35,004 bases of DNA from a bacterium (lineage in GTDB: Bacteria > ARS69), in contig JALGZR010000048.1 of the NCBI GenBank assembly GCA_025774805.1, positions 1 to 35,004 on the forward strand, in the 5' to 3' direction. This document shows positions 16,400-27,663 of the stretch, piece after piece. The notes beneath the pieces are model-generated. The model worked only from the letters and a program-made list of their open reading frames with translations, did no database searches and was not told where the DNA came from. How positions within the stretch are numbered: the first letter of the stretch is position 1; the number at the start of each line of letters is the position of its first letter. The translations under genes were made by a program, and so were the position numbers.

Positions 16400-18688
16400 G
16401 TGCCTCGGCGTCCGTCCGGACCCGGTGGATGCGAACCCGTGCGCGGAGACTCGGTCGGTTTGCTGCGTCGTAACTCGTCGAAGTCACATTTCTCGTCCTC
16501 CCCCGACGAAACTCTGCTGAAGGCCCTCTACGGACAGTCGGATCTCATCGTGATCCGGCTCGATTCCGAGGGAAACGTGCTCGAGTGGCCGGACGGCGCG
16601 CGCCAGCTTCTCGGGTGGCACGAGGATCGGATCCGGGGGAACCCGGCGAAGATCTGCCTCGCCGAGGAGGATCGCGAGACCCTGGGTCAGCGTGTGCACG
16701 AGACCTCTCGGTGCGACGGGGAGGGGGCGGCGACTCTTCTCACGGGCGAAGGGGAGTTCCTTCCGGGGGGCGGGCGGCTTCTCCCCTACCGGGGCGGCAA
16801 AGAGATCCTGATGATCGTGAACGACCGGCGCACCGCGGCCGCGTCGGAGAGATGGCTGAGATGGTCGCGCAGCCTCATCTCCGTCCTGGGCGGCTCCACG
16901 CTCGTCCTCGACCCGGGGGGCTGGATCCGCGAGATCGGCGCCGGGTGGCTTCCGGAGGGTCCCCACCGGCGCCCCGAGTGGCTCGGGCGCCACGCCGGTG
17001 ACCTCTTCGGCGGGGACCGACGGGAGGTGATCGCGGCGCTGCGGAGCGTGGCTCGTGATGGGGAGTGGAGCGGCCGGCTCTCGATGGGGGGGGACCCGAT
17101 TCCGGTGCGCTTCCGCACGGTCCGGGACGACTCCGGGGGCCTCGAGGCCATCGTCGGAGCGAGGCTGCCCGGCGACCCCGGGGAGACCCGAGAGCTCTTC
17201 CGCAACATCCCGGTGGCCATGCTCCTGGTCGATCGGGAGTTCCGGATCTCGGAGATCAACGCCGAGCTGGAGGCGATGGTCGGACCGGACATCCTTCCGG
17301 AGAAGGTCCTCGGGTTGGACATCCGCTCCTTGGGCATCTTTCAGACCCGGCCGATCCAAGCCGCTCTCGACAACCTTCTGGAGAGCGGCGTCTCCGGCCC
17401 GCAGGAGGTACACCTCAAGGGGACGCCGGAGACCACTCCTCTCGTGCAGCTGCGCGGGCAGAAGCTCACCGGCGAGGGGGGAATCATCACCGGCTATGTG
17501 ATCATGCTCCTGACCCACACGGAGAAGAGCCGGGTCGAGCGGCAGCTCCTCTGCGCCCAGAAGATGGAATCGATCGGGAACTTCGCGAGCGGGTTGGCCC
17601 ACGACTTCGGGAACTTCGTGTCGGTGATTCTCGGGAAGGCCGGCGTTCTCCGGGTGAAACTCCCGGACGATCCCCACATCACCGGGGACCTCGACGACAT
17701 CGAGACCACCGCCAAACGCGCCCAACATCTCGCCCAGGAACTGATGAAGTTCGCTCGGGGAGGACGGTCGCGCGTCGCTAGTCTCGACATCAATGCGCTG
17801 ATCGAAGAGGTCGGCTCCCTGATCCGGACGAGTGTCGGCAAGCGGATCGAGGTCAATCTCCGGCTGGGCGAGGGGATCCTGCCCGTGAACGGAGACACGG
17901 TCGAGCTCCAGCAGATGGTGCTCAACCTCTGCCTCAACGCGCGCGACGCGATGCCGGACGGGGGTCGACTCACGATTCAGACGAAGGCGCTCACCGAGGC
18001 CGAGCTCAGCCGCCTGCCCGATTCGTCCGACCTGCGAGGGGGTGTCCGCCTCATCGTGGAGGACTCCGGGATGGGGATGGCGACCGACGTGGCGGAGCGG
18101 GTGTTCGAGCCGTTCTTCACGACGAAGGAGGACGCGAAGGGAACGGGACTCGGTCTCGCCATGGTCTACTCCATCGTTCGGCGGCACGGCGGCACGGTGG
18201 ACGTTCGAAGTCAGCCCGAGGTCGGCACGACCTTCGAGATCGCGCTGCCCGCCGCCGCGGCGTCCATCCAACCGGCCGACCGTCCCCGGATTCTGGTCGT
18301 CGACGACGAGCCGGCCTTCCGCGAGATGATCCGCCTCATCATCGAGGAGGACGGCCACCAGGTGCTCCTGGCCGCCAGCGGCATCGAGGCCCTGCGGACC
18401 CTGCGCTCCGAGTACGACACCCTTTCGCTCGTCATTCTCGACCTGAGGATGCCGGGCGTCGACGGCCTCGCCGTCCTCGAGGAGCTGAGGGGTCTCGCGC
18501 CGGGCCTTCCCGTGTTGGTCACCACCGGCTACGCGAGCGACGAGGAGAAGACCTCCGCTCTCAGCCGCGGGGCTCAAATGGTGCTGGAGAAGCCCTATCG
18601 GGTCACGGAACTACGGGCCGCTCTCGCCGAGCTCCTGCAGGCGGGGCAGGAGGCGAAGTCGGAGGAGAGCGGCTTCCGACTCCCTTGA
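16400..18688 (+). CDS. Hybrid PAS-histidine kinase with C-terminal receiver domain
   Basis: A protein of up to 762 residues without transmembrane segments, so probably cytoplasmic. Residues ~37-145 (SDLIVIRLDSEGNVLEWPDGARQLLGW) are a PAS domain, ~150-255 look like a degenerate second PAS, and ~263-375 (FRNIPVAMLLVDREFRISEINAELEAMVG) a third. The H box is KMESIGNFASGLAHDFGNF with phosphoacceptor H401. The ATPase domain has the N box NLCLNARDAMPDGG (~509) and GTGLGLAMVYSIVRRHGG (~580-597). The receiver ILVVDDEPAF... has acidic D635/D636, phosphorylation site D681 (LDLRMPGVDG) and K731 (LEKPY). This layout fits NtrB-like hybrid kinases that pass phosphate internally; the signal and partner are unknown. 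The first in-frame start is GTG 16400, too close to GGAGGA; GTG 16439 is an equally good start, and either keeps all domains. Confidence 0.92.
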   Translation: MPRRPSGPGGCEPVRGDSVGLLRRNSSKSHFSSSPDETLLKALYGQSDLIVIRLDSEGNVLEWPDGARQLLGWHEDRIRGNPAKICLAEEDRETLGQRVHETSRCDGEGAATLLTGEGEFLPGGGRLLPYRGGKEILMIVNDRRTAAASERWLRWSRSLISVLGGSTLVLDPGGWIREIGAGWLPEGPHRRPEWLGRHAGDLFGGDRREVIAALRSVARDGEWSGRLSMGGDPIPVRFRTVRDDSGGLEAIVGARLPGDPGETRELFRNIPVAMLLVDREFRISEINAELEAMVGPDILPEKVLGLDIRSLGIFQTRPIQAALDNLLESGVSGPQEVHLKGTPETTPLVQLRGQKLTGEGGIITGYVIMLLTHTEKSRVERQLLCAQKMESIGNFASGLAHDFGNFVSVILGKAGVLRVKLPDDPHITGDLDDIETTAKRAQHLAQELMKFARGGRSRVASLDINALIEEVGSLIRTSVGKRIEVNLRLGEGILPVNGDTVELQQMVLNLCLNARDAMPDGGRLTIQTKALTEAELSRLPDSSDLRGGVRLIVEDSGMGMATDVAERVFEPFFTTKEDAKGTGLGLAMVYSIVRRHGGTVDVRSQPEVGTTFEIALPAAAASIQPADRPRILVVDDEPAFREMIRLIIEEDGHQVLLAASGIEALRTLRSEYDTLSLVILDLRMPGVDGLAVLEELRGLAPGLPVLVTTGYASDEEKTSALSRGAQMVLEKPYRVTELRAALAELLQAGQEAKSEESGFRLP

Positions 18689-18773: not shown

Positions 18774-18848
18774 TCCTCGGTAGCTCAATGGTAGAGCATG
18801 CGGCTGTTAACCGCAGGGTTGTAGGTTCGAGTCCTACCCGGGGAGCCA
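18774..18848 (+). tRNA. tRNA-Asn (anticodon GTT), CCA encoded
   Basis: A 75-base gene folding as a full cloverleaf: acceptor TCCTCGG / CCGGGGA (with two T-G wobbles), D stem GCTC/GAGC, anticodon stem TGCGG/CCGCA with loop CTGTTAA (anticodon GTT), T stem GTAGG/CCTAC with loop TTCGAGT, discriminator G and genomic CCA. The sequence TTAACCGCAGGGTTGTAGGTT... is typical of bacterial tRNA-Asn. It stands alone, 85 bases after the sensor kinase. A bulged hairpin (GGGC(T)CCCCT / AGGGGCCC, 18742-18761) without a T-run precedes it. Confidence 0.96.
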
Positions 18849-19026: not shown

Positions 19027-20022
19027 TCAGCGCCGGATCGCGGAGACCATTCCGTCCTGGTTGCCCACGTAGAGCACGTCGTCCGCGAGGCGAATGCCGC
19101 GAATGACACCCTCGAGCCGAGTGGATCGCATGAGCCGTCCATCCGCCATCCCGTGCTCGAAAATCTCCCCCCGGTTGTTCCCGAGGAAGATCCGATCCCC
19201 GTAGACGTAAGGTCGAGGCGTGCTCCAGGAGGTACCCTCCGGAGACTTCAGCGTCCAGGCAATGTGGGACAGGGAGGAGTCCACGCACATGAGCTCCGAG
19301 CTTCGGTAGATCCAGTCGGTGCCCACGAGCAGTCTGCCATCCACCTCGACGATCGCCGCCGAGGGCTCTTTGCCCAGGTTCAGCTGACTCCGGACCGAGC
19401 CGTCCTCCGCATCGAGCAGGTGGAGGAGGCCGTTCACGGTGCCCATCACGATGCCGCTCTCGAGAGCGCATACCGAGGTGCGAATCGGCGCACCCAGAGG
19501 GGTCTTCCACAGCGGCGCGCCGTCCTCCGCCTTCCAGGCGTAGGCGGTGCCATCCAATCCACCGAAGAAGACGACTCCGTGCGCGATCGCGGGAGTTCCG
19601 TTGAGAGTCCACCGCTCCCCTTGATAGCCGCTCTGCCGGCTCCAGATCAGGCTCCCGTCGTCGACGCGGATGCACAGGAGCTCATCCGCAAGGGTGGTCG
19701 CGTACACCCGCCCCTCCGACAACTGGATGTCCGTGGCGACGCCGAGAGCCCCGACGGGTCGGGACGGTGCCGGCGCGGTCCAGCGCAAGGCGCCCGACGC
19801 CCACTCGAAGGCATAGATGCCATCCTCGTTCGGACCATCGGTTCCGATCAGAAACAGCTCGCCCGTGACGAGGGGGTCGCCGTGGAAGCTCGCGGGAAGG
19901 CTGTCGCCGGTGGTCGTGCGCTCCCAGACGACGTGTCCGGTCTCTCGGTCCAGGGCTCGAATCCGGCTGTTGCAGGATCCGATGAGAAGCAGGTCTCCCG
20001 CGACCGCGGGGGTCGAGAAGAC
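19027..20022 (-). CDS. PQQ-like beta-propeller, continuing the ACR3 frame after an in-frame TGA
   Basis: Read in the same frame as the ACR3 gene and directly after its TGA (20023-20025), this stretch encodes ~331 residues with no further stop until TGA 19027-19029. It opens VFSTPAVAGDLLLIGS and has about seven repeats of the type 'v-y-l-G-t-x-d-G-x-l-x-A-l-D-x-x-t-G-x-x-x-W': RIRALDRETGHVVWE, GGLDGTAYAWKAEDGAPLWK, GTVNGLLHLLDAEDGSV, GNNRGEIFEHGMADG, and last VLYVGNQDGMVSAIRR. The final blade lacks its closing W-strand; [10 protein letters not shown], encoded just before the TGA, would supply it. No ribosome-binding site with a start codon is seen after the TGA, and the first alternative start (TTG 19788) is in the middle of a blade. 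So this is either the second half of a readthrough/recoded fusion or a remnant made by a nonsense mutation. Such propellers often act in the periplasm; a ligand cannot be named. Confidence 0.8.
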   Translation of the reverse strand, partial: VFSTPAVAGDLLLIGSCNSRIRALDRETGHVVWERTTTGDSLPASFHGDPLVTGELFLIGTDGPNEDGIYAFEWASGALRWTAPAPSRPVGALGVATDIQLSEGRVYATTLADELLCIRVDDGSLIWSRQSGYQGERWTLNGTPAIAHGVVFFGGLDGTAYAWKAEDGAPLWKTPLGAPIRTSVCALESGIVMGTVNGLLHLLDAEDGSVRSQLNLGKEPSAAIVEVDGRLLVGTDWIYRSSELMCVDSSLSHIAWTLKSPEGTSWSTPRPYVYGDRIFLGNNRGEIFEHGMADGRLMRSTRLEGVIRGIRLADDVLYVGNQDGMVSAIRR

Positions 20023-20025
20023 TCA
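19993..20025 (-). other. In-frame TGA with SECIS-like hairpin
   Basis: On the minus strand TGA (20025-20023) is followed, after 12 bases, by CCCGC / GCGGG (20010-20006 and 20001-19997) with apical loop GGTC; the loop begins after 17 bases. Outer GTCT (directly after the TGA) can pair with AGAC (19996-19993). Bacterial SECIS elements have a short stem with G-G-U in the apical loop 16-37 bases after UGA; E. coli fdhF has GGUCU at 18 bases. The match is suggestive only, because GC-rich coding DNA forms many small hairpins. Confidence 0.35.
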
Positions 20026-21318
20026 CCCCTCCGTGTCGAACTGCCAGAGGATGTCGGGTTCGACCGGGGGTTCGGCGTCGGCCGCGGATGCGCTCGCGGA
20101 GAATCCGACCGCCAGAGTCGCGGCACACGACAGGGCCGCCGGGAAACCCCGGCGCGTTCGCAGGCAGACGCGAACGAGCATCAGCATCACCGGCACTTCG
20201 ATGAGCACGCCCACCACGGTGGCGAGGGCCGCTCCGGATGAGAGCCCGAAGAGCATGACGGCGGTGGCGATCGCGACCTCGAAATGGTTCGAGGCGCCGA
20301 TCAGGGCGGACGGAGCGGCGTCCCGGTACGAGAGACGAAGCCATCGGGCGAGTCCGTAGGCGAGGGAGAAGATCAGCACCGTCTGGAGAAAGAGGGGCAC
20401 CGCGATCCAGAGGATGGTCATCGGGTTCGAGAGGATGACCTCGCCCTTGAAGGAGAAGAGAAGGATCAAGGTGAGGAGGAGCGCACCGATGGTCACGGGC
20501 GTGAGGAGATGGAGGAACTTCTCCCGAAACCACGTCTCTCCTCGGGCGGCGACGATCCATCGGCGGGACAGGTAACCCGCGACGAGTGGAAGGGCGACGT
20601 AGATCGAGATGGACATCAGAAGCGCCTGCCAGGGAACGGGGAGGCGGCCGACTCCGAGGAGAAACCCGCCCAGCGGTCCGTAGAGGACGAGCATGGTGAG
20701 CGAGTTGATGGCGACCATGACCAGCGTGTGGCCGTCGTTCCCCCGGGCGAGGTAGCCCCAGACCAAGACCATGGCGGTGCAGGGGGCGATCCCGAGCAGG
20801 ATGCAACCGGCGAGGTAGCTTCGCCAGAGCGGAACCTCGAGCATCTTGATGCTGTCACGGAGGACCACCGTTCCGGATCCGTAGGCGGCTCCCACCGGGA
20901 GGTCGAGTCCGAGCGGCATCTTGACGTGGTCGACCGCCTCCGGGCCGATGAACCTCAGGAAGAAGAAGCCCAGAAACAGGAGGCTGATGGCGTACATCGT
21001 GAACGGCTTGACGCCCCAGTTCACGAAGAGGGTGAGCCCCACCGGCCGGATACTCCGACCCGCTCGAAGAACCTCGGCGAAGTCGATCTTCACCATGATG
21101 GGGTACATCATGAAGAAGAGACAGATCGCGATCGGAAGGGACACCACCGGTGCGCCGTCGACGGTCAGCGCCATGCCGTCGAGCGTCCGGGCGATCTCCG
21201 GCGCGATCTTTCCCAGGAGGATTCCGCCCGCGATGCAGAGAAGGACCCAGACGGTCAGAAAGCGCTCAAAGAAGCCGAGCCCTCGGGGCTGGCGCGTGAC
21301 GTGGGCTTCACTCGCCAT
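20023..21318 (-). CDS. acr3: ACR3-family arsenite efflux transporter, with extra C-terminal segment
   Basis: A protein of 431 residues up to the TGA. Ten transmembrane segments span ~18-385. The family motifs are present: [24 protein letters not shown] (conserved Cys C180) and [22 protein letters not shown] (conserved Glu E347), then [17 protein letters not shown], where ordinary ACR3 proteins end. Here the frame continues through [26 protein letters not shown], which resembles a signal peptide or an 11th membrane helix, and [10 protein letters not shown], a propeller strand, before TGA. The loop before the Cys helix ([20 protein letters not shown]..., ~130-165) is longer than I recall for typical ACR3. 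ACR3 exports As(III) using the proton gradient. ATG 21318 lies three bases after the arsC stop, so the two form an operon. Confidence 0.93.
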
Positions 21319-21321
21319 GGC

Positions 21322-21786
21322 CTAGGTCTCCGCATCCCGAAGAGAGCAGGGGAGGGTCTCGACGAACGCTCGGATCTCGTCCCGAACTCGGCGGTAGGGG
21401 GCCAGAGCCTCCTCTTCGGTGGAGGCCCCTCGGGCCAGGAGGGGTGGGTCATCGAAGCTCCGATGGACCGTCCGGGCTGCTCCCGGGAAGACCGGGCAGG
21501 ACTCGCGGGCACGGTCACAGACGGTCACGACGTAGTCGAAGCACACGTGCCGGAGGTCGTCGACGTGCTTGGAGCGCTGCTCGGAGATGTCCACTCCGGC
21601 CTCCGCCATGACCTTCACGGCGCGACGATTCAGTCCGTGGGTCTCGACCCCCGCGGAAGAGGGCTCGATTCCATCGCTCTTGAGGGTCCGGGCCCAGCCC
21701 TCCGCCATCTGGCTTCGGCAGGAGTTCCCGGTGCAGAGAAAGAGCACCCGCAGCTTCGGCTCACGATCGCGCATAGCTCCTCTCAT
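21322..21786 (-). CDS. arsC: Arsenate reductase, thioredoxin-coupled (LMW-PTP fold)
   Basis: A 154-residue protein reducing As(V) to As(III) for export. The phosphatase-like loop CTGNSCRSQMAEGW holds nucleophile C18 with S25. The redox pair is C90 and C97 (VTVCDRARESCPVFPG), spaced seven apart as in the Staphylococcus type, and a late FDDPP motif gives the general acid Asp. The reduction cycle would use thioredoxin. The start is ATG 21786 or, with GAGGAG directly upstream, ATG 21774. It is the first gene of the arsC-acr3 operon. The 117 bases to the divergent kinase gene must hold both promoters; no ArsR gene is in the window. Confidence 0.95.
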   Translation of the reverse strand: MRGAMRDREPKLRVLFLCTGNSCRSQMAEGWARTLKSDGIEPSSAGVETHGLNRRAVKVMAEAGVDISEQRSKHVDDLRHVCFDYVVTVCDRARESCPVFPGAARTVHRSFDDPPLLARGASTEEEALAPYRRVRDEIRAFVETLPCSLRDAET

Positions 21787-21888
21787 AGGAGGCCGGGAGC
21801 TCAGGTGTCAAGAGCCGTTGCGACTCCCCTCCCCCACGACCCGGCCCGCCGGCGCCCCGTGCCGTCGAGCGGCCCCTTCCGCACGGTG

Positions 21889-21897
21889 TGCTATCTT
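21889..21897 (+). promoter_or_regulatory. Extended -10 promoter for the kinase gene (leaderless)
   Basis: TGCTATCTT matches an extended -10 (TGnTATNNT). Its expected start point, seven bases after the hexamer, falls on the A of ATG 21904. No Shine-Dalgarno precedes that ATG, so a leaderless mRNA fits. No good -35 is seen, as is usual for extended -10 promoters. Confidence 0.5.
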
Positions 21898-21903
21898 GTG
21901 CGG

Positions 21904-24900
21904 ATGACCGGCGAAGTGAATGAGACCCGCCCTCTGAGCTCCGGCGAGATTACCGCCCGAGTGCTGTCTCCCGGCGCCGTGCTGAGGAACCGCTACCGCC
22001 TCGAAGCCGAGCTCGGCCGTGGCGGCATGGGCATCGTCTACCGTGCCACGGATCTCGAGCTGAAGCGAGAGGTGGCGGTCAAGGTGCTGTCGGCCGCGTT
22101 CGCCGACGACTCCGCCCGCCTGCGCCTGCAACGGGAGGCCCGGGCCGCCGCGGCGCTCAACCACCCCCACATCGTGACCGTATACGACGTCGGCGAGGAC
22201 GAGGGGCTTCCCTTCTTCATCATGGAGCTCGTGCACGGACCCCGATTGAGCGAATCGCCGCCGCGGGATCTCGAGGAGGCGGTGAACGTCGCCCTCCAGA
22301 TCTGCGACGCGCTCGAGCACGCGCACGCGACGGGCATCGTGCATCGCGACCTGAAGCCGGAGAACGTCCTGTTTGCCGTCGAGGATGACTCGCGCAGCGT
22401 CAAGCTCGCCGACCTCGGCCTCGCCACGCCGGCCCGCGACGCCCGCATCACGGCCGCCGGATCGATCGTGGGCACGGCCGCCTACATGGCGCCCGAGCAG
22501 GCCCTCGGCCAGGCCCTCGACGGACGAGCGGACCTCTACGCCCTCGGCGTGCTCCTCTATGAGCTGTGCACCGGCCGCCTGCCGTTCATGGGAGACAACC
22601 CGCTGGCCATCATCTCTCAGCACGTTCACGCACCGCCCGTCCCCCCTCGCATCCTGCGCGCGGAAATCTCTCCGGCGCTGGAGGCGACGATCCTGCGCCT
22701 CCTCGAAAAAGACCCGGGGCGCCGATACGCGAGCGCCGCGGAGACGGCGAGAGCGCTGATGACGGCTCGGGCCGATCCGACGGCGGGTGCGGACGCCGAG
22801 GCCGGAGGGACGATTGCCCTCCTCGACGCGCTCTCCCGCGGCCGGCTCGTGGGGCGGGCGGAGGAGTTCCGGCAGACGCGAAGCCTCTGGCGCCGGGCGC
22901 TCGACGGCCAGGGCTGCTTCCTTCTCCTCAGCGGGGATCCCGGGGTGGGCAAGACGCGACTCGCCCGTGAGATCCTCATCCAGGCCGCTCTCGACGGGGC
23001 GGTGATGCTGACCGGTGCGTGCTACGAGTACGAGGCGACCACTCCCTATCTACCGTTCGTGGAGGCGTTCCGCGATTGGACCCGCACGCGGGAGGACGAC
23101 GCCGCCCTTCGCGAGGCACTGGGCGACACGGCTCCGGAGATCGCCAAGCTCGTGCCGGAGCTGTCCGCGCGCCTCGGGCCCTTTCCCGGGCGCGCGAAGC
23201 TGTCCCCTCACGAGGAGCGGCTCTATTTCTTCGACGCCATGGCCCGCGTGCTCCGCGCCCTCGCCGCCGGACGGGGACTCATCTACTACATCGATGACCT
23301 ACACTGGGCCGACAGCAGCACACTTTGGCTCCTCGGCCACCTCGTTCGCAGTCTCCGCGACGAGCCCGTTCTCTTCGTCAGTTCGTACCGGGAGATCGAG
23401 CTCGATCGGGCGCACCCCCTCTCCAAGGCCCTCGTCGAGTGGAACCGGGAGCGGCTGACGACGCGCCTCGTTCTCCGGCCCTTCGGGTTGGAGGAGACGC
23501 GGGCCCAGATGGCGGCCCTGCTCGGCGAGAGCATCTCGACCGAGCTCGCGGCGGCCGTCTACCGCGAGACGGAGGGGAACCCCTTCTTCGTGGAAGAGGT
23601 GGTGAAGGCCCTCATCGAGGAGGGCGCCTTCCACCGGGAACAGGGGCACTGGGAGCGGTGGGAGATCCCCGACCTGGTCATTCCTCAGAGTGTCAAGGCG
23701 GCCATCGGCAACCGTCTGGACCGCGTCAGCGAGGAGTGCAACGGAGTCCTGCGCGCCGCGGCCGTGCTCGGCAAGAACTTCGAGTTCGCCGAGCTGTCGC
23801 TCACCGCGGGGAGTCCCGGCGAGGATGCCCTGCTCGACGTCCTCGACGAGGCCGTCGCCGCGCAGCTTCTCACCGCGGACCGCGATGAGCGCTTCGCCTT
23901 CACTCACGACAAGATCCGGGAGGTCCTCTACGAGGAGCTCAATCCGATCCGGCGCCGGCGCCTGCACAAGCGCGCGGCCGAAGGGCTGCAGGCGTCGGAG
24001 GCCGTGGCGGTGGAGATCCTGGCCCATCACTTCATCGAGGCGGGGGACCACGAGCAGGGATTGCGCTACGCGAAGGAGGCGGCACGGGAGGCCGAGCGCG
24101 TGTTCGCCTACACGGAGGCCCTCGACGCCTACGGCCGTGCCGTCGAGTGCGCGGAGGCGCTGGAGCTCCGGGGAGAGCAGGCGGCGTTGGAGGAGGCGAT
24201 GGGTGACGCCTGCTTCGGCGGCGGGGAAATGATCGCCGCCCGCACCCACTACGAGCGGGCACTCGGTCTGGTCGACCACCCCGAAGCGAGGACCCGGCTC
24301 CTCTGCCGAGCGGGGAGTGCCTGCGTGCCCACCGGGGATCCCGTCGGGCTCGACTACGTCCGGGAGGCCCTCGCCACTCTCGATGCCGAGACCCATCCGG
24401 CGGACACGGCCTTGGCGCTGGCCATCGAGGCCCGGTTCCACCACCTCGCCGGCCAACATCGGCGGGCCATCGACATGCTGGAGCGGGCCGCGGAGCTGCT
24501 CGAACCGGAGGTCGACGCCGCGCCCGGCGTCACGGACGTCCACAGCATGCTCACGGAAGTCTACGCCTACCTCTCCGGCGCGCACCAGCATCTCGGCCGG
24601 TACGAGGATGCCAACCGCTGGGCGCGAAAACTCCTCGCGTTCGGGGAGGAATACGACGCGCTGATGGCCCAGGCCATCGCCTACGAGTTCCTCGGAGAGA
24701 ACTGCACCGGAACCGGCGAGTGGGAGAGGGGGCTCGAGCACGCGGCCAAGGAACGGGAGATCGCCGAGCGCATGCGCTCTCGGGAGCGATTGAGCTGGGC
24801 CTGCTTCGTCGAGTCCATGTGCGCCGCCGGCCACGGGGATCTCGATCGCGGGGAGCGGGCCACGGAGGAAGCCATTCGGCTCTCGGAGGCGATCGGGGAG

Positions 24901-25317
24901 AAGCGGCTCCACGCTCTTTTGACCGGCCGGAGACCCTGGTTTCTCGTTCAACGGGGCCGGAACGAGGACGCGCTCGCCGCGAGCGCGTCCGCCATCGAGG
25001 AGGCCGATGCGCTCGGCCTCTACTTCATGCGGTCCGAGGCCCGCCGAATCGCCGCCGACGTGCACTTCCGGCGCGGAGATTACGATCGAGCACTGGAGTT
25101 CGTCGGGGAGGTGCTCGCCCTCAGCGAGGGGAAGGAGTCGCGGTCCGGCCGACTCCTGATCGGGCCCCTCCACGTGGAGACTCTCCTGGCCGCGGGCCGC
25201 GCGGCCGAGGCCCGCGAACAGGTCGAGATCTTCGCGGACCTCGTCGCCGAATGCCAGTCCCCCTTGTACGACAGGGAAGTCGCGCGGCTTCGGGCCCTCG
25301 CGGCCGAGGCCGAGTAG
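21904..25317 (+). CDS. Serine/threonine protein kinase - AAA/ATPase - TPR regulator
   Basis: A 1137-residue protein. The kinase domain at ~31-300 has GRGGMG (38-43), K60 (VAVKVL), HRDLKPEN with catalytic D149, DLG in place of DFG (D170), and GTAAYMAPEQ. Residues ~318-600 are an AAA-type ATPase of the adenylyl-cyclase/MalT kind (AAA_16): VGRAEEF, Walker A GDPGVGKT (K350) and Walker B LIYYIDDLHWAD (D464/D465). The rest, ~690-1137, is helical repeat sequence with TPR-like units (ALDAYGRAVECAEAL, AIDMLERAAELLEP, ALEFVGEVLALSEG). No transmembrane helix is seen, so it is probably a cytosolic hub. Such architectures occur in signalling-rich phyla; the substrate is unknown. ATG 21904 is chosen from the promoter; the same frame is open leftwards to 20284 but only antisense to arsC-acr3. 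It is transcribed divergently from arsC. Confidence 0.92.
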   Translation: MTGEVNETRPLSSGEITARVLSPGAVLRNRYRLEAELGRGGMGIVYRATDLELKREVAVKVLSAAFADDSARLRLQREARAAAALNHPHIVTVYDVGEDEGLPFFIMELVHGPRLSESPPRDLEEAVNVALQICDALEHAHATGIVHRDLKPENVLFAVEDDSRSVKLADLGLATPARDARITAAGSIVGTAAYMAPEQALGQALDGRADLYALGVLLYELCTGRLPFMGDNPLAIISQHVHAPPVPPRILRAEISPALEATILRLLEKDPGRRYASAAETARALMTARADPTAGADAEAGGTIALLDALSRGRLVGRAEEFRQTRSLWRRALDGQGCFLLLSGDPGVGKTRLAREILIQAALDGAVMLTGACYEYEATTPYLPFVEAFRDWTRTREDDAALREALGDTAPEIAKLVPELSARLGPFPGRAKLSPHEERLYFFDAMARVLRALAAGRGLIYYIDDLHWADSSTLWLLGHLVRSLRDEPVLFVSSYREIELDRAHPLSKALVEWNRERLTTRLVLRPFGLEETRAQMAALLGESISTELAAAVYRETEGNPFFVEEVVKALIEEGAFHREQGHWERWEIPDLVIPQSVKAAIGNRLDRVSEECNGVLRAAAVLGKNFEFAELSLTAGSPGEDALLDVLDEAVAAQLLTADRDERFAFTHDKIREVLYEELNPIRRRRLHKRAAEGLQASEAVAVEILAHHFIEAGDHEQGLRYAKEAAREAERVFAYTEALDAYGRAVECAEALELRGEQAALEEAMGDACFGGGEMIAARTHYERALGLVDHPEARTRLLCRAGSACVPTGDPVGLDYVREALATLDAETHPADTALALAIEARFHHLAGQHRRAIDMLERAAELLEPEVDAAPGVTDVHSMLTEVYAYLSGAHQHLGRYEDANRWARKLLAFGEEYDALMAQAIAYEFLGENCTGTGEWERGLEHAAKEREIAERMRSRERLSWACFVESMCAAGHGDLDRGERATEEAIRLSEAIGEKRLHALLTGRRPWFLVQRGRNEDALAASASAIEEADALGLYFMRSEARRIAADVHFRRGDYDRALEFVGEVLALSEGKESRSGRLLIGPLHVETLLAAGRAAEAREQVEIFADLVAECQSPLYDREVARLRALAAEAE

Positions 25318-26106: not shown

Positions 26107-27663
26107 CTAGCGGCGGTACCGGGCCTTGACCTTCCCCCAGCTCGAGGGTTCGACGGAGCTCCCCGCGGACAGCCCCGGGCCGCAACCGGATCCGTGGGCC
26201 CCCATGAGCAGTCCGCAGGCGTTGTACTGGGGAAGGCAGGGGGAGTTGGTGCGGACGAAATAGTTGTCATTCCCCGGATCGCAGAACATAGGATCCGCCT
26301 CGATGTTCTCGTTGCTCACGAGTTGGTCGGTCAGGCAGCCGACCCAATTCCCCCCCGCGTTCCCGTAGATGTCGCTGCAGCTCACCGTGACGTTGTCCGA
26401 AGCGGTACAGGCCACCCCCTCCCCGAGAGCGCTGAACGCGACGATCGTCTGTTTGATGATCAGGGGTCCCGAGAGCTCGGTGGAGATCCCGCCCCCCAGG
26501 ACGGAGGCCGAGTTCCCGGTGAGGGTGGACGTGGCGACATCGACCTGCGTGGCATCGAAGCTGCGGATTGCGCCGCCGCTCCTTCCCGCCGTGTTTCCGA
26601 TGAACCGGCAGTCCCGAATCGTCGCCAGGCACGTGCTGTTGCAGATCATCGCGCCCCCGTCGAGACCGGCCGAGTTCTCCAAGAACGTGGAGCCCAGTAT
26701 GTAGGGCGAGGACTGCCAGCACGCGATGGCCCCTCCTGAGTAAGGCTCGGCCTTGTTGCCCGTGAAGAGGCAGTCGCTGATCCCGGGAGAGGACCACAGA
26801 GCGATGAAGAGGGCGCCGCCGGTGGACGCGGAGTCGCTGTCAAAGACACAGTCGTTGAGCTGGGCATAGGAAGTCTCGAAGTACATTCCACCGCCGCCCT
26901 CCGACCGGTTCCCCGAGAAGGTGCACCCGGTCAGGATCGAGTTGTCGAAGGAGTAGGAATAGAAGCCTCCTCCGCCCGCCCCGGACGCGTTGCCCTGAAA
27001 GGAGCAGTCGATCGCCTCGAGATCCGAGTTCTCCGAGAAGATGCCTCCGCCGTCCCCCGGGAGCACCAGGCCGAAGGCCGTGTTGGAGACGAAATCGCAG
27101 TTCTGAAGCACCGGATCCGACTCCCGACAGAACATCCCGCCTCCCGCGGCCCAGGATATGCCCGTGGCCTGGTTCGCTTCGATGCGACACTTCTCCAGGA
27201 CGAGGGAGGACTCGTAGCAGCCGACTCCCCCTCCGAACTCCGAGGTGTTTCCGGTGACGACGCAGTGCGAGACGTGCAGCGGAGACTGGGTGCAGTGAAT
27301 CCCGCCGCCGCCGTACCCGGTGCCCGGCAGCCCCTGGCCGCCGGTGATCGTGAATCCCGCGAGCCGGGTGGTATCGGCCAGGCCCGTGCTGACGAAGACG
27401 CGGCCGAGGCCCTGCGCATCGACGGTCGCGCAGCTCGCAGCCTCGTCCGCGCTGCGGACGACGATTCCCGCCTTCAGCACGATATCGTGTTCGTAGTAGC
27501 TCCCGCAGCCCACGAGAACCGTATCCCCCACCGCGGCGGAGTCGATCCCGGCCTGGATCGTGGGGCAGTCGCCGGAGCCGTCGGGGAGGATCTGCCAGGT
27601 ACGAGCGGTCAGGGGGCCGGCCAGGACCGGAATCAAGAGGACGGAAATCGCGGAAGCTCTCAG
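26107..27663 (-). CDS. Secreted right-handed parallel beta-helix protein
   Basis: A protein of 518 residues from the preferred start. It opens with a short signal peptide (RASAISVLLIPVLAGPLTA), then WQILPDGSGDCPTIQAGIDSAAVGDTVLVGCGSYYE, the usual lead-in of pectate-lyase-like repeat proteins. Residues ~85-430 are PbH1-type coils such as GGGIHCTQSPLHVSHCVVTGN, each ~22-25 residues, with stacked Gly-Gly-Gly and Asn-T/S. It ends with ADPMFCDPGNDNYFV...SPCLPQYNACG, a Cys-rich cap often seen in Eisenbacteria-like secreted proteins (recalled). The only start with a ribosome-binding site is CTG 27663, six bases after GGGAGG; TTG 27636 would cut the signal peptide. Role could be adhesion or polysaccharide binding; no catalytic site is evident. 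Confidence 0.88.
   Translation of the reverse strand: MRASAISVLLIPVLAGPLTARTWQILPDGSGDCPTIQAGIDSAAVGDTVLVGCGSYYEHDIVLKAGIVVRSADEAASCATVDAQGLGRVFVSTGLADTTRLAGFTITGGQGLPGTGYGGGGIHCTQSPLHVSHCVVTGNTSEFGGGVGCYESSLVLEKCRIEANQATGISWAAGGGMFCRESDPVLQNCDFVSNTAFGLVLPGDGGGIFSENSDLEAIDCSFQGNASGAGGGGFYSYSFDNSILTGCTFSGNRSEGGGGMYFETSYAQLNDCVFDSDSASTGGALFIALWSSPGISDCLFTGNKAEPYSGGAIACWQSSPYILGSTFLENSAGLDGGAMICNSTCLATIRDCRFIGNTAGRSGGAIRSFDATQVDVATSTLTGNSASVLGGGISTELSGPLIIKQTIVAFSALGEGVACTASDNVTVSCSDIYGNAGGNWVGCLTDQLVSNENIEADPMFCDPGNDNYFVRTNSPCLPQYNACGLLMGAHGSGCGPGLSAGSSVEPSSWGKVKARYRR

Follow-up and report, generated by a model that had tools for sequence, protein, structure and literature searches.

A predicted selenocysteine-containing beta-propeller family, with one member fused to an ACR3 arsenite transporter

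The window analyzed here, a 35,004-nucleotide stretch of DNA from a bacterium of the GTDB lineage ARS69, carries on its minus strand a frame whose internal TGA (20023-20025) is very probably decoded as selenocysteine (Sec432) and very probably marks a new selenoprotein family. Our computations establish that the UGA is conserved, that it is followed by a covarying SECIS stem-loop, that the host genome encodes selenocysteine machinery, that the codons past the UGA are under purifying selection and that they belong to a propeller fold. According to the proposed mechanism, SelB and tRNA-Sec would insert Sec at position 432 upon the SECIS stem-loop located ~11-12 nt downstream, and the product would be a protein of 763 residues composed of an ACR3 domain, a hydrophobic segment and a Sec-containing BamB/PQQ-like propeller.

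Translation of window positions 19027-21318 (minus strand) yields 431 codons, the TGA at 20023-20025, 331 more sense codons and a second TGA at 19027-19029, which bears out the preliminary description of this DNA as an interrupted propeller frame. The half of the frame that follows the internal TGA matches PQQ_2 and other propeller profiles in a Pfam profile search. The strand that precedes the TGA, previously assigned to the same fold, is indeed included in the predicted structural model (model residues 7-13). The statement that no start site exists after the TGA proved incorrect: in-frame starts are present, the first being a TTG at 19788, 78 codons past the TGA. Since this TTG lies inside the propeller, only a truncated fold could result from its use. 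General reassignment of UGA was considered and rejected, since TGA also terminates genes here, including the gene under study (19027-19029), and only the TGA at 20023-20025 bears the stem-loop. The role of TGA as an ordinary stop elsewhere in this DNA had been held against selenocysteine; the observation is true, but such usage is expected in Sec-decoding bacteria and is no argument against Sec insertion.

As had been suggested, homologues were aligned at the TGA column. The window propeller and 11 homologous propellers (L025, L130, L131, L142, L143, L145, L146, L147, L164, L166 and L167) have TGA at the identical column (12/12). The genomes that encode them are public assemblies, mostly metagenomic, and are spread over four phylum-level groups; they include Krumholzibacteriota, Gemmatimonadetes and an unclassified bacterium, while the fourth group was reached via an Eisenbacteria genome. 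Most members are 27-36% identical to the window propeller, and one (L143) is ~60% identical over aligned parts. The unfused homologue L025 comes from another genus of the same family as the window organism (36% identity), and its segment LLWHHDLGGuIYCPPEVSGDVLFVGSCSG, where u stands for TGA, aligns to 29 residues of the window protein. A second Sec propeller, L160/L143 (G019:C45:28986-29827), also unfused, is found in the genome that has L142; the reading frame of L143 is shifted mid-gene, which may reflect either misassembly or gene decay.

Sec members form one clade with branch support of 100/100 relative to non-Sec propellers. In related non-Sec propellers, the Sec column is occupied by E, D, Q, A, R, G or other residues, never by Cys. 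Among the genomes searched, no Cys homologue was found, and every family-level match spanning the column had TGA; such absence of a Cys homologue is uncommon among selenoproteins. In 392 genomes of a planctomycete's phylum, scanned with five candidates scored per genome, there were no matches at E 1e-50. Two further residues stand out: Cys449 (Sec+17; 19972-19974, minus strand), a proposed resolving or co-ligand thiol that is present in all 12 members, and His479 (19882-19884, minus strand), which lies in the [FV]HG motif of the following blade; in alignment A3, Phe-His-Gly is invariant in all nine sequences. From these alignments, the putative family motif may be written as D-x-G-G-U-[IVL]-x-x-x-P-[EA]-V-x-G-x(6)-S-C, with the first positions variable. 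It had been objected that, by alignment of the internal repeats, the position of the TGA corresponds to Thr rather than to a redox Cys. The objection is factually fair, as non-Sec propellers have no Cys at this column, but it does not refute Sec, since the Sec column is conserved along with the partner Cys and the SECIS.

Substitution patterns past the TGA were examined as well. The dN/dS ratios calculated from computed dN and dS values were ~0.18 for the L131/L164 pair, ~0.16 for L166/L167 and ~0.19-0.25 for the window and L143 (two aligned parts), i.e., downstream codons are under purifying selection (dN/dS ~0.16-0.25). These data bear on the alternative that an ordinary ACR3-propeller gene is interrupted here, either by a nonsense mutation of recent origin or through an error of sequencing. 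TGA is one base away from several sense codons, and the assembly that includes the contig is fragmented, with 284 contigs in all. However, the identical TGA is found in twelve genes of many genomes with a covarying stem-loop alongside, and the downstream dN/dS is far below 1; we regard this explanation as extremely improbable.

The predicted SECIS stem-loop of the window occupies positions 19995-20012 (minus strand), as supported by the covariance model described below and by pair counts, and its apical loop, GGTC, is at 20002-20005. Five GC-rich pairs surround the loop; the stem begins ~11-12 nt after the TGA and the loop after 17 nt, exactly where a stem with a GGTC loop had been reported (12 and 17 nt, respectively). 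The two strands of the window contain 782 TGA trinucleotides, of which only that at 20023-20025 precedes five perfect pairs with an xGUx loop at this distance. In the pooled loci, 34,040 TGA occurrences yielded 27 distinct TGAs of this kind, and 12 of these belonged to family members. The position of the stem-loop and its loop sequence at the TGA are therefore more than chance would produce.

All 12 members have a stem-loop at the same spacing past the TGA, with the loop being either GGUC or AGUU, and the twelve post-TGA segments align without gaps. Pair 15/30 occurs as G-C, U-A, C-G and A-U and is broken only in the window (C.A); it is formed by two synonymously free third codon positions, one in the codon preceding Pro and the other in a Gly GGN codon. 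Pair 20/25 is A-U or C-G, with amino acids changing to match. In the alignment as a whole, 97.6% of cells are paired, and the covariation value is 0.398 compared to 0.152 for shuffled alignments (0/500 as high) and at most 0.106 when the structure is slid. Selection acts on the stem-loop at the RNA level. A covariance model trained on the eleven other members, i.e., with the window excluded, matches window positions 19972-20025 at E 1.1e-12, with the next best match at E 1.8; the model scores sequence and structure jointly.

The hairpin energies range from -9.1 to -14.4 kcal/mol across members. When the window RNA is folded alone, a different hairpin is preferred (-15.8 versus -9.1 kcal/mol for the SECIS fold); in the other eleven members, the SECIS fold has a probability of at least 0.90. 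The competing hairpin of the window draws on the first 12 bases past the TGA, a stretch expected to lie within a ribosome paused at that codon. Sec could be inserted less efficiently in the window copy than in related members. ViennaRNA analysis of the window alone was unconvincing (z -1.25); the case rests on comparative evidence.

The genome from which the window is derived (5.1 Mb, 284 contigs) was searched for selA, selB and tRNA-Sec, as had been proposed earlier. It contains selB (382.9 bits, confirmed by a further analysis), selA (535.7 bits) and a tRNA-Sec with a TCA anticodon (72.3 bits). The machinery was looked at in two hosts; the other one, G066, is a single 4.13-Mb contig from a different phylum-level group and contains full-length selB (E 2e-142) and selA (E 4e-86).

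Since a stem-loop placed after a stop codon can stimulate readthrough, one might attribute decoding of the UGA to ordinary readthrough or to a different suppressor tRNA, the stem-loop merely stalling the ribosome. Yet the loop sequence, the spacing and the stem fit bacterial SECIS rules, selA, selB and tRNA-Sec are present in the window genome, and the partner Cys is invariant, which makes readthrough of this kind very improbable. The published rules call for a loop of 3-9 nt, a G in the first two loop positions and a spacing of 16-37 nt (PMC13188914), and the element conforms to them in loop, G position, spacing and energy. Four readings of the TGA had been offered in the preliminary description, i.e., selenocysteine insertion, tRNA readthrough, recent nonsense mutation and sequencing error. 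The first of them is supported by the occurrence of this TGA at one column in twelve genes, by the covarying stem-loop and by the Sec-decoding genome; mutation, error and simple readthrough fail as explanations of this combination.

The Sec432-containing domain (19030-20073, minus strand) is predicted to be a PQQ/BamB-like beta-propeller of about eight blades, based on Pfam PQQ_2 matches, AlphaFold2 modeling and comparison with BamB structures. The AlphaFold2 model of the propeller is of high quality (pLDDT 92, pTM 0.89), while that of the entire fusion is poor (pLDDT 58). The closest known fold is that of BamB, the outer membrane assembly lipoprotein (TIGR03300), whose PQQ-like propeller aligns with a VIA-align Z of ~38-40 over ~330 residues. 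The sequence identity is ~20%, however, and the propeller scores 98.5 bits, far below the TIGR03300 cut-off of 285.2. To our knowledge, BamB is not a selenoprotein. Tetrathionate hydrolase, a member of the same propeller superfamily, comes next after BamB (Z ~35). PQQ-dependent dehydrogenases also belong to this superfamily and are catalytic propellers, but the window propeller reaches 50.3 bits, far below the TIGR03075 cut-off of 480.05. In contrast to these dehydrogenases and to tetrathionate hydrolase, the Sec propeller is a single short propeller in which Sec and Cys would replace a quinone-type center. With bacterial SelB-dependent selenoproteins, it shares an in-frame UGA, a SECIS within the coding region, a genome with SelA, SelB and tRNA-Sec, a conserved Sec column and a nearby Cys. 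In place of a UxxC-type motif, the Sec propeller has Sec and Cys spaced by 17 residues.

The N-terminal part of the window frame (residues 1-392; 20143-21318, minus strand) is an ACR3 arsenite efflux transporter domain: it scores 369.8 bits against the TIGR00832 cut-off of 282.8, and residues 14-385 match the entire family model. It differs from other ACR3 proteins by its C-terminal fusion to the Sec propeller. ACR3 genes that are 74-83% identical in other genomes end near the domain boundary, soon after residue 400. In the window fusion, the ACR3 stop is missing, and the last ACR3 helix runs on into a hydrophobic, signal-peptide-like stretch (residues 393-412; 20083-20142, minus strand) that joins ACR3 to the propeller. 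This stretch aligns with signal peptides of unfused relatives, e.g., that of L143, and is probably either a signal peptide that was retained or an eleventh transmembrane helix. The other members are unfused and have signal-peptide-like N-termini, as judged by eye, which makes the periplasm or the cell envelope the probable site of action of the propeller domain. The C-terminus of ACR3 is cytoplasmic, and so the added hydrophobic stretch would take the propeller to the periplasm.

The Sec propeller could be real and the fusion an artefact of assembly or sequencing, or the propeller could start at an internal ATG near residue 378. Every other member is unfused and has its own signal-peptide-like start, and initiation at M378 or M380 would give such a start, albeit without a clear ribosome-binding site. 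On the other hand, the frame runs continuously from ACR3 into the propeller without a stop, and common start codons are absent past residue 380 (no in-frame ATG, GTG or TTG occurs between residues 381 and 431). We consider an artefactual fusion or internal start unlikely, though worth bearing in mind.

Three bases upstream of the ACR3 start lies a gene for an ArsC-type arsenate reductase of the low-molecular-weight phosphatase fold (21322-21786, minus strand; PF01451; 146.9 bits with TIGR02691, whose cut-off is 174.3). An ars operon as a family trait was rejected, since neighbors differ among the genomes examined; at the loci inspected, no resistance genes were seen beside other members and no neighbors were shared. 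As neighborhoods are not conserved, they imply no pathway. Elsewhere in the window, an open frame of 1677 aa (20284-25317, plus strand) overlaps ACR3 and arsC in antisense; its true gene, which starts several hundred codons into the frame, encodes a serine/threonine kinase whose C-terminal part is of the TOMM type. A hybrid sensor histidine kinase with a receiver domain (16400-18688, plus strand), whose CckA-like scores are below family cut-offs, adjoins a tRNA-Asn (18774-18848), and a predicted right-handed beta-helix protein with polymorphic-membrane-protein-like repeats is encoded at 26107-27636 (minus strand).

In the propeller, Sec432 and Cys449 flank one beta-hairpin and are roughly opposite each other, counting from the turn. 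Together with the nearby invariant His, this placement suggests a redox center or a soft-metal site. At the face of the propeller, and close to the invariant His of the following blade, Sec432 and Cys449 may constitute a redox pair (selenol/thiol to selenenylsulfide); both the Sec-Cys bond and the export of the propeller are inferred, and we lean slightly towards a redox role. Alternatively, Sec could serve with Cys449 and His479 as a ligand of a metal or metalloid (arsenic, mercury, copper), making the protein a buffer, sensor or chaperone and not a redox catalyst. The fusion to ACR3 and the adjacent arsC in the window would fit such a role, as would the ties of many recently listed selenoproteins to metal or metalloid resistance (PMC13188914). 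Resistance genes do not adjoin other members, however, and the Sec/Cys arrangement is equally compatible with a redox pair, so that we hold the ligand role to be a plausible but less favored possibility.

As for a redox center, the fusion would place it at the outer side of the arsenite pump, where it could oxidize or relay the extruded thiophilic metalloid. Given the ArsC-type gene three bases upstream, the module of the window organism may act on arsenite as it exits the pump. The arsenic link is based on the window copy alone, and we consider an arsenic role in this organism possible but rather doubtful; as an ancestral role, arsenic is unlikely, since the other members examined lack such neighbors. 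The chances seem to us about even that the family is a class of exported propeller selenoenzymes with a Sec-Cys(-His) redox center and no Cys ancestor, which in one lineage became a metalloid-processing module at the outer face of an arsenite pump.

A 2026 inventory lists 119 prokaryotic selenoprotein families and subfamilies, none of which is a propeller (PMC13188914), and there is no propeller selenoprotein in the deep-Sep study (PMC12013277). A literature search for selenoproteins with propeller, PQQ, BamB or ACR3, in which subscription journals were incompletely covered, found no such family. The selenium-containing beta-propellers thus appear to be a previously unlisted family, which would add a fold absent from the published prokaryotic list, where most characterized members are thioredoxin-like. 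The family may have been overlooked because Cys/Sec-pair methods need Cys homologues; a selenoprotein family without a visible Cys counterpart belongs to a class that such searches miss by design. If the family is the selenoenzyme class considered above, Sec would have arisen in it without a Cys-containing ancestor. Standard annotation would truncate or split all twelve genes at the UGA. The predicted family provides a testable Sec site on the propeller surface, and, in one genome, a physical link of selenium chemistry to arsenite export.
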